DNA of 25,617 nt from a virus: positions 1 to 25,617 of the IMG/VR virus record IMGVR_UViG_3300044618_000117; one strand, given 5' to 3'. The translations under genes were made by a program, and so were the position numbers. Below the pieces are notes generated by a model. The model made no database searches. It was not told where the DNA came from and saw nothing but the letters and a program-made list of their open reading frames with translations. Shown one piece after another: positions 1,051 through 3,025 of this stretch. The stretch's first letter is position 1; each line of letters starts with the position of its first letter.

Positions 1051-1347
1051 TTAAGCCAGCTTTTGAACAGTGACCTTGACAGCACCCGGTGCCTTGCGTT
1101 CTGGCAACATAGCAATGTAAGGCTTGCCCCAACGGTCTGCCATCAGCAGTGGGGTGTCACAGTTCGTCTCATTCTCAGGCTTGAACACCCTGACTTCCAT
1201 CTTGTGTTTCTTGCCGAGTGTCAACATAGTTTTGTACAGTTCAGCGATATTCTCGTGGTTGAAATTGCCACTGTCATCAGGCTTGACAACAAGCTGCTTG
1301 TTGGAATTACTATACACCGATACTTTACCTTGATAAATCTTAGCCAT
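1051..1347 (-). CDS. Early protein, paralogue of the 2482-2781 product (98 aa)
   Basis: The frame is open upstream to 1434, but the ATG at 1347 is the start: AAGGAG sits 7 nt before it and the product then aligns end to end with the 99-aa protein at 2482-2781. Both begin M-(S)AK-x-(Y/F)-(Q/E)-G-x-VSV, carry (M/L)A(D/N)R(W/F)G(K/N)PYIA(M/L)LP(E/K)R near residues 75-90 and end in KLA. The family is unknown to me. The ordered pattern of short strands with a conserved NRxGxPYIA core suggests a small single-domain beta protein. It heads the leftmost operon, just downstream of a candidate minus-strand promoter, so early high-level expression is inferred. Confidence 0.75.
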   Translation of the reverse strand: MAKIYQGKVSVYSNSNKQLVVKPDDSGNFNHENIAELYKTMLTLGKKHKMEVRVFKPENETNCDTPLLMADRWGKPYIAMLPERKAPGAVKVTVQKLA

Positions 1348-1512
1348 GATAGGCTCCTTAGAGGTTGTTGTAATGCTGTATAAAGCCCAGCACCGAGGCC
1401 CAGCCAGTCTCGCCGGGGCCGGGACGAACGTCAAGTGGCGGCTCGTTGTCCAAGAACATGGGTTGCGTAAAGCGGCTTAAAGGGGGCTTGGCGCGTGAAC
1501 AATCTACGAATT

Positions 1513-1541
1513 GATGTAAACAATCTATAAATAAGTGTCAA
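1513..1541 (-). promoter_or_regulatory. Candidate leftward sigma70 promoter for the 1347-1 operon
   Basis: On the minus strand a perfect TTGACA (1541-1536) is followed after 17 nt by TACATC (1518-1513), a weak -10. It points at the gene starting at 1347, leaving a leader of roughly 150 nt. The -35 lies inside one arm of the inverted repeat, so a protein bound there could block it. Confidence 0.35.
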
Positions 1542-1814
1542 GTTAGATTGCTCGTAGATCGCAAAAATCCAATGAAATCAACGGGTTACGAGTGACGATC
1601 TAAACAATCTACGTTTTTGGAAGTAATGTCGCACTAAAAAGTTGGAAGACTTCATGCCACATTATGAAAAGTGTGGAGTCATCTCAGGGTTTATGTAGTA
1701 TACACTAAAAACCTATCTTTTCTATATCATATATATCGTTCATAGACTCATGGCTCATGGTAAAAATCACGTAAGTGGTTGATTTCATTGGACATTTCTT
1801 CTAACTTGACACTT
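1533..1814. repeat. Nested long-range inverted repeats
   Basis: Two perfect 15-bp inverted repeats are nested. The outer pair is AAGTGTCAAGTTAGA at 1533-1547 against its complement at 1800-1814. The inner pair is TCCAATGAAATCAAC at 1568-1582 against its complement at 1778-1792. A further TTACG/CGTAA pair lies just inside. The arms are separated by about 195 bp and differ in internal spacing, 20 nt versus 7 nt. A smaller hairpin-like CCACA/TGTGG pair sits between the arms near 1656-1675. Confidence 0.75.
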
Positions 1815-1913
1815 TACACATGTAAGGTTTCTCGATGTAAAGTACTGATTCCATGCCGAGTTAAAAATAGATTGTTGCATGTATAGTTAGATTGTGTCAG
1901 GTTAGCCCCTTAC

Positions 1914-1942: not shown

Positions 1943-2010
1943 ACTGTGTCCCCCCTGTGTAAAGTCGTTCAGTACCGCAGCGTTGTGAGCTATAAACCCC
2001 CGACGTATGG

Positions 2011-2025
2011 TGTGTGTAACACACA
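2011..2025. repeat. Perfect 7-bp inverted repeat (operator-like)
   Basis: TGTGTGT-A-ACACACA is a perfect dyad with a one-base centre, about 70 bp downstream of the consensus rightward promoter. With a one-base centre it is more plausible as a protein-binding operator than as an RNA hairpin. Confidence 0.4.
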
Positions 2026-2070: not shown

Positions 2071-2098
2071 GACAAAGAAAAGCCCGCCGAAGCGGGCT
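2071..2098 (-). terminator. Rho-independent terminator after the 28-aa gene
   Basis: Read leftward, AGCCCGC (2098-2092), a TTCG loop and GCGGGCT (2087-2081) form a 7-bp GC-rich stem, followed by TTTCTTTGTC. It lies a few bases after the stop of the 28-codon gene and closes this leftward gene group. Confidence 0.8.
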
Positions 2099-2481: not shown

Positions 2482-2781
2482 TTAGGCCAACTTGGTTACT
2501 GCGTTCTTCTTGCCGCTACCAGCGCCACGCTTGGGAAGCAGGGCGATGTAGGGGTTGCCGAACCGGTTAGCCAACATCACAGGCTCTGTGCCGTCTTTGG
2601 CAATGAACAACGAATACTTGTTGATCGGAAACTTGAGCTTTTTGGAAAGCTCGGTCATCTTTGCATAGCATTCGCTAGCATTGGTCACCGAGTATTTACC
2701 CTCAGCATCTTTTTTCAGAGCAATCTCATCTTTGGTGTTCTTAACCACAGACACGGAACCCTCAAAGGTCTTTGCAGACAT
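2482..2781 (-). CDS. Early protein, paralogue of the 1051-1347 product (99 aa)
   Basis: AGGAG lies 7 nt before the ATG at 2781. An upstream in-frame start at 2808 has no comparable site and would break the alignment with the paralogue. Shared features with the 98-aa protein at 1051-1347 are the N-terminal GxVSV, a Lys-rich D-x-x-G-(K/N) segment, LxKKxK near the middle, ANRFGNPYIALLPKR near the C-terminus and a terminal KLA. The family is unknown to me. Being the first gene of its leftward group, behind a boxA-like leader and before a strong terminator, it is probably the most abundant product of the group. Confidence 0.75.
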   Translation of the reverse strand: MSAKTFEGSVSVVKNTKDEIALKKDAEGKYSVTNASECYAKMTELSKKLKFPINKYSLFIAKDGTEPVMLANRFGNPYIALLPKRGAGSGKKNAVTKLA

Positions 2782-2948: not shown

Positions 2949-3025
2949 CCTCGCGCATAATGCGCGTAATGCGCATGTGCGCACATGATGTGCGTGCGCA
3001 CGTGATGCGCGTGCGTGACGCGAGG
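2949..3025. repeat. Alternating purine-pyrimidine palindrome cluster (Z-DNA/cruciform-prone)
   Basis: A 77-bp tract bounded by the inverted pair CCTCGCG (2949-2955) and CGCGAGG (3019-3025). Inside are a perfect 14-bp palindrome CATGTGCGCACATG (2974-2987), a perfect 10-bp palindrome CGTGCGCACG (2993-3002) and several variants of RTGCGY. Long stretches alternate strictly purine/pyrimidine. It lies about 140 bp upstream of the terminase genes. Confidence 0.75.

Follow-up and report, generated by a model that had tools for sequence, protein, structure and literature searches.

Mirrored iteron dimers and IHF-type boxes in a noncoding region of an uncultured freshwater phage family: a probable replication origin

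The repeat region, its genes and its relatives

The window considered here is the whole analysed stretch of 25,617 nt of the viral record IMGVR_UViG_3300044618_000117, which carries terminase, portal and capsid genes. Within it, a noncoding stretch filled with repeats is bordered on the left by a leftward operon and on the right by a terminator-like stem (2098-2081) of small leftward genes. From left to right, the following features are found in and around this region:

1051-1347, minus strand: 98-aa gene standing first in the leftward operon
1406-1434, minus strand: promoter-like TTGACG-N17-GAGACT in front of the leftward early operon
1499-1527, minus strand: outer iterons TAGATTGT, left set (1499-1506 and 1520-1527)
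1533-1547, minus strand: outer arm, O repeat TCTAACTTGACACTT
1544-1562, plus strand: two reversed iteron-like units (1544-1551 and 1555-1562)
1563-1590, plus strand: left inner arm, box TCCAATGAAATCAACGGGTTACG with IHF consensus AATCAACGGGTTA
1595-1611, minus strand: tandem 9-bp iteron dimer TAGATTGTTTAGATCGT, pointing left
1612-1722: core between the mirrored dimers, 111 bp, 64% A+T, presumed melting region
1723-1739, plus strand: tandem 9-bp iteron dimer TATATCATATATATCGT, pointing right
1770-1797, minus strand: right inner arm, box TCCAATGAAATCAACCACTTACG with IHF consensus AATCAACCACTTA
1800-1818, plus strand: outer arm and O repeats TCTAACTTGACACTTTACA
1836-1843, 1880-1887, 1912-1919 and 1958-1965: further O-like copies on the right side
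1868-1895, plus strand: outer iterons TAGATTGT, right set (1868-1875 and 1888-1895)
1989-2012, minus strand: M4, a conserved block CACCATACGTCGGGGGTTTATAGC occurring once, at the region's right edge
2081-2098, minus strand: terminator-like stem at the end of the leftward genes that lie right of the region
2482-2778, minus strand: paralogue of the 98-aa gene

In regard to the phages themselves, the window belongs to a widespread, uncultured freshwater family of bacterial viruses. Its relatives reach about 56 kb; one of them (G011; 56,281 bp) shows an overlap of 59 nt between its ends, like that of a circular assembly, while another (G003) looks unit length, with the contig end about 150 bp before the small-terminase gene. 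The leftward operon in the relatives encodes DNA polymerase A, an SNF2-type helicase and a protein with a DUF927 domain. The relatives are apparently lytic, and neither a tyrosine integrase (20 contig searches, one contig, G013, being counted twice) nor a resolvase (14 contigs searched) was found.

Relatives were gathered by way of the operon's first gene (29 loci), through the terminase (the best 80 of at least 599 candidates) and through the M4 block (50 contigs, with 37 for its second form). Clustering at 85% identity reduced 122 regions to 38 non-redundant ones, all of which carry an exact M4 form, either of the two, by construction. A fresh scan with an alignment of the 98-aa protein returned almost only contigs that were already known.

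Nested arms and mirrored iterons

The earlier note on this DNA described two perfect 15-bp inverted pairs, nested one inside the other around an AT-rich core, and read them as a symmetric element, such as a bidirectional origin, a looping operator or the scar of a mobile element. Both pairs are present, the outer at 1533-1547/1800-1814 and the inner at 1568-1582/1778-1792, and they do exceed chance expectation, being the only perfect inverted pairs of at least 13 nt within 300 nt in the window, against a mean of 0.1 in 60 dinucleotide shuffles. The interval between the inner arms (1583-1777, 195 bp) is also AT-rich as described, with 64% A+T against 44% in the window. The outer arms are identical over 15 nt (100%), and the inner arms sit in a 28-nt match of 82%. 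The note gave no coordinates for its third short pair; several inverted pairs of 10-14 nt occur as well, the strongest further pair being an imperfect one, not named in the note, formed by the iteron dimers at 1595-1611 (minus strand) and 1723-1739 (plus strand). A search of Rfam gave a single sub-threshold match, to rsmX, which was taken as chance since its 22.6 bits fall far under the gathering score of 56.

Conservation in relatives had been proposed as the check on the arms, and its outcome is divided: distant relatives keep the genes without the arms, yet they retain iteron dimers and IHF boxes. The conserved symmetry of the region is that of mirrored tandem dimers of 9-bp iterons, not the perfect inner palindrome. 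Tandem dimers of such units (typical form TAGATTATTTAGATTGT) number 86 in the 38 regions against 0.2 in shuffles. Both orientations are present in 29 of the 38 regions, and in all 29 the order is mirrored, with the left dimer pointing left and the right dimer pointing right. The gap between the mirrored dimers ranges from 87 to 168 bp and is mostly 97-113 bp. The other nine regions are short of a dimer, eight having one orientation only and one (L176) having none. Among single units, the polarity of T units comes to 178 of 212 against 157.2 (sd 4.8) when labels are assigned at random.

Part of the data had been seen before the dimer pattern was defined, and the pattern was therefore tested on 48 terminase loci without an exact M4. 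Dimers were found in 20 of them, and 12 hold a pair in two orientations at 17-400 bp, which is mirrored in every case (12/12) and opposite in none; in L086, another of the 20, plus and minus matches overlap, closer than that range, and this locus was left out of the pair count. As the relatives share ancestry and are partly redundant, 29/29 and 12/12 are not to be read as independent events. In the five sequences scanned whole, the window and four long relatives, dimers are confined to the region: two of two in the window, two each in G003, G011 and G002, and three in G014.

Furthermore, the iteron unit shifts in concert from lineage to lineage while the layout stays constant. The forms met are TAGATTGTT, TAGATAGTT (in L058 and L061), CAGATAAAA (in L125) and TATATTATT (in L144 and L160).

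The inner arms turn out to be copies of a box of about 22 nt, of which 45 copies occur in the 38 regions against 0.27 in shuffles. The centre of the box is WATCAAnnnnTTR, described as the consensus of IHF, a protein that bends DNA (PMC10380432). The strict consensus is found in 38 of 38 regions, with 66 sites against 2.35 over 60 shuffle rounds, and none of the sites falls between the dimers. In the whole window it has exactly two matches, which are the two inner arms. Likewise, in 19 of 20 dimer-carrying loci outside the 38, several of them near-duplicates, a consensus match lies at most 250 bp away. The inner arms would be bound by IHF.

According to a tally from the listing, the box that follows the right-hand dimer is inverted in 6 of 20 regions and direct in 14, at nearly the same place. 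Because the orientation varies in this way, the arms are regarded as putative binding boxes tolerant of orientation. The same tally bears on the possibility that the arms base-pair as DNA or RNA into a stem or cruciform, for which the two perfect 15-bp pairs would be the natural material: a stem is ruled out at the right inner box in the 14 regions where it is direct and not inverted, and 195-252 nt separate the arms, so that such pairing has next to no probability. The perfect inner palindrome is therefore no stem, but the way in which a single lineage has arranged two IHF-type boxes. Of the earlier claim of a symmetric element, the guess of an origin is the part that gained support, being the best-supported reading, while the perfect inner palindrome did not hold as a conserved feature.

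Outer arms, promoter-like sequences and the M4 block

Each outer arm is a copy of a second repeat, O, with the core ACTTGACA/ACTTTACA/ACTATACA. At least two copies of ACTTGACA are present in 30 of the 38 regions, while in shuffles no 8-mer reaches this in more than four. In the related regions, where their order was tested, the O repeats have no mirrored polarity.

The earlier note also pointed to TTGACA promoter cores in opposite directions within these arms. The hexamers are there, in opposite directions (1541-1536 on the minus strand and 1806-1811 on the plus strand), but they are part of a repeat whose middle varies from copy to copy (AACTTGACA/AACTTTACA/AACTATACA), and for the TTGACA of the arms no -10 element at 16-18 nt passes the promoter scan. 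With a variable middle and no conserved -10, the O repeat is unlikely to be a promoter, and the promoter reading of these cores was set aside as probably wrong. A TTGACA-N17-TATACT at 1914-1942 is not retained in most aligned relatives.

A better promoter candidate is TTGAC[AG]-N17-GAG[AT]CT, which occurs twice in the window (1434-1406 and 2944-2916, both on the minus strand), once before each of the two copies of the 98-aa gene, and is conserved in relatives. A wider pattern, in which TA[TC]ACT is also allowed as the -10, matches 24 of the 38 regions. The -10 of the pair is unlike the sigma-70 consensus. A conserved 33-codon frame, MFL(D/E)N..., seen by eye in the alignment, overlaps the promoter-like pair (1356-1461, minus strand) and may encode a small peptide or be an accident of the promoter. 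The structure model of the 98-aa protein, with a pLDDT of 53, is unusable.

These observations are the ones that would speak for an early control region, in which iterons and O repeats are operators of a repressor or activator and an IHF-shaped loop controls the leftward early operon. That operon and the promoter-like pair at 1434-1406 lie directly downstream of the region, control by looping would also agree with IHF and mirrored operators, and the 98-aa gene family is found on both sides. However, there are no divergent genes, no repressor was recognised and the relatives look lytic, while the mirrored dimers, the AT-rich core at the G+C minimum and an initiator-type helicase in all contigs of at least 40 kb fit an origin better. 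Control of the early operon as the explanation of the region is therefore rather unlikely, although a transcription regulator could just as well use these sites and both roles may coexist.

At the right edge of the region, M4 has a single match in the window even with up to three mismatches allowed. Its exact, invariant 21-mer is found in 50 viral contigs and a second form, ATACGTCGGGGGGTCAYGGC, in 37. M4 directly follows the terminator, and a small hairpin of variable sequence often precedes it. A stem of at least 5 bp is present in 17 of 43 flanks against 2.4 in shuffles; as the remaining 26 of 43 have none, the hairpin was rejected as a universal structure and retained only as a lead. The idea of an N4-like virion RNA polymerase with an M4 hairpin as its promoter was likewise dropped, the giant protein of 2,608-2,774 aa that came into question having no family support and no HD pair in the four aligned copies. 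A search for the T7-type RNA polymerase family (PF00940) gave no match, with the control likewise unmatched. The giant 2,608-aa protein of one relative (L114:10169-17995, plus strand) belongs to the virion module; it has an HETLGH (HExxH) motif, and no motif of a polymerase was recognised in it.

A short invariant block next to repeats and IHF consensus sites also recalls an attachment site, with M4 as the crossover core, the repeats as arm-type sites and IHF acting as in lambda attP. Such a reading was rejected because no tyrosine integrase (20 contig searches) and no resolvase (14 contigs) was found; moreover, M4 has two matches in bacterial genome assemblies, about chance, one in a phage-like contig and one in an apparent ribonuclease PH gene. 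An attachment site is thus very improbable, and the scar of a mobile element suggested at the outset is unlikely for the same want of recombinases. The second of these matches is an exact M4 21-mer in a Nitrospirae contig (L166:232-252), inside what by eye appears to be a ribonuclease PH gene; by our own arithmetic, about 0.1 chance matches to the 21-mer are expected in that bacterial collection.

Packaging could be another function of the region, as a pac or cos site upstream of the terminase genes, since it lies 1.2 kb before the small-terminase gene and the end of the unit-length-looking G003 is about 150 bp in front of the same gene. Against this, contigs end near M4 at differing places, the contig break of G003 is outside the repeat region, and packaging has no need of mirrored iterons, an AT-rich core and IHF boxes, which leaves it improbable. 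Upstream of the small-terminase gene, at 2955-3025, there is an alternating, palindrome-rich GCGC/TGCG tract which, given where G003 ends, may be near the physical end of the genome.

A candidate initiator and comparison with known origins

One DUF927 protein is encoded in 19 of 22 contigs of relatives, including 16 of 16 of those of at least 40 kb, and in 1 of 14 control genomes. The three contigs without it measure 26-38 kb, and the window fragment stops before the gene, which in G003 is about 17 kb from the repeat region. The protein, of about 950 aa, fuses a primase and a helicase, its N-terminus being primase-like (PHROGs) and its other half a helicase. Primases fused to DUF927 have been described as predicted helicases of mobile elements (PMC5862659). 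The profile of the helicase half matches the SaPI helicase 8tch (4.9e-11) and the SCCmec helicase Cch 5dgk (9.7e-11), and an AlphaFold model of modest quality (pLDDT 60) has Cch as its sole significant fold match, over 510 columns. Cch is reported to contain DUF927 and to be related to the Rep of SaPIbov1, and SaPI Rep to recognise iterons, apparently as two hexamers (PMC7581432). Identity of the C-terminal helicase to that of G003 is 0.53 in L058 and 0.49 in L125, L144 and L160. Diverged helicases thus accompany changed iterons, as co-evolution predicts and ordinary descent predicts equally. A cultivated relative, Pseudomonas phage Rollin, has a full-length DUF927 homologue (26%). Its AT-rich unannotated stretch L217:1-1000, with the palindromic repeats AAAAGGTAG/CTACCTTTT, has different repeats and no dimers and is a candidate origin.

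The G+C minimum in 400-bp windows coincides with the region in G003, G011 and G014, and in G002 the region is second lowest. Minima of the cumulative G-C skew do not fall consistently on the region, and the skew was discarded as evidence for an origin. No DnaA box with at most one mismatch occurs at 1400-2080 of the window, and an exact one is present in only 5 of the 38 related regions.

Taken from the letters and their comparison, the stretch from about 1499 to 1896, perhaps to 2012, is probably an IHF-assisted origin with a double set of iterons, of the type known from phage-parasitising DNA islands (PICI/SaPI). In such an origin, the phage's own DUF927 primase-helicase would bind the 9-bp iterons in the mirrored tandem dimers, and host IHF, bound to the boxes next to the dimers on their outer sides, would bend the flanking DNA and join the initiator assemblies. 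The AT-rich core of about 111 bp would then melt, and two hexamers would load head to head and start divergent forks. The outer arms belong to a second repeat family, O. A more specific version, in which an uncultured lytic family has a PICI-type origin with two divergent hexamers of a self-loading primase-helicase on IHF-joined mirrored dimers and M4 is the site of the first primer of the fused primase, is put forward only tentatively.

To our knowledge, origins of uncultured lytic phages have rarely been located from sequence; here, symmetry, IHF boxes and an initiator-type helicase converge in one place. The concerted change of iterons between lineages offers natural material for the study of initiator-iteron recognition. 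Among the matches listed in a search of the open-access literature, no description of such a phage origin was found.

Several known systems share parts of this layout. The origin of phage lambda likewise combines inverted-repeat iterons with an adjacent AT-rich region (PMC5043065). Its iterons, however, are 19 bp long, adjoin the AT-rich stretch and are bound by O, whereas here 9-bp tandem units mirror each other on the two sides of the core, and a homologue of O was not seen. The pSC101 and R6K gamma origins combine iterons, an AT-rich stretch and IHF, which is needed for the opening of pSC101 and R6K (PMC5043065); most of their iterons are direct repeats, and they depend on DnaA, whereas the region in the window is without a DnaA box. 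In the SCCmec elements with Cch or Cch2, it is Cch that, along with the SaPI helicase 8tch, comes nearest to the helicase half among solved structures. The origin proposed for Cch2 consists of three direct 5-nt iterons, and the available text of the source describes no mirrored layout for it (PMC7581432).

The closest likeness is to the origins of PICIs and SaPIs (SaPIbov1, E. coli PICIs), which are described as always having an AT-rich region flanked by two sets of iterons (PMC6092414). Two sets around an AT-rich region are also found here (both sets in 29 of 38 regions), together with an initiator-helicase of the DUF927/Cch/SaPI Rep kind, encoded in the relatives. On the other hand, the present phages are apparently lytic and of about 56 kb, primase and helicase are fused, and IHF boxes are present, which the available parts of the sources do not mention for PICIs. 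The candidate origin is found where the early operon begins, while the PICI origin is immediately 3' of rep; because it is not directly 3' of rep, it is filed as a variant of the PICI/SaPI origin and not as a member. A lytic family with the PICI layout would bear directly on where PICI replicons came from and, if the reading is true, PICI replicons and a phage lineage would share one type of origin.
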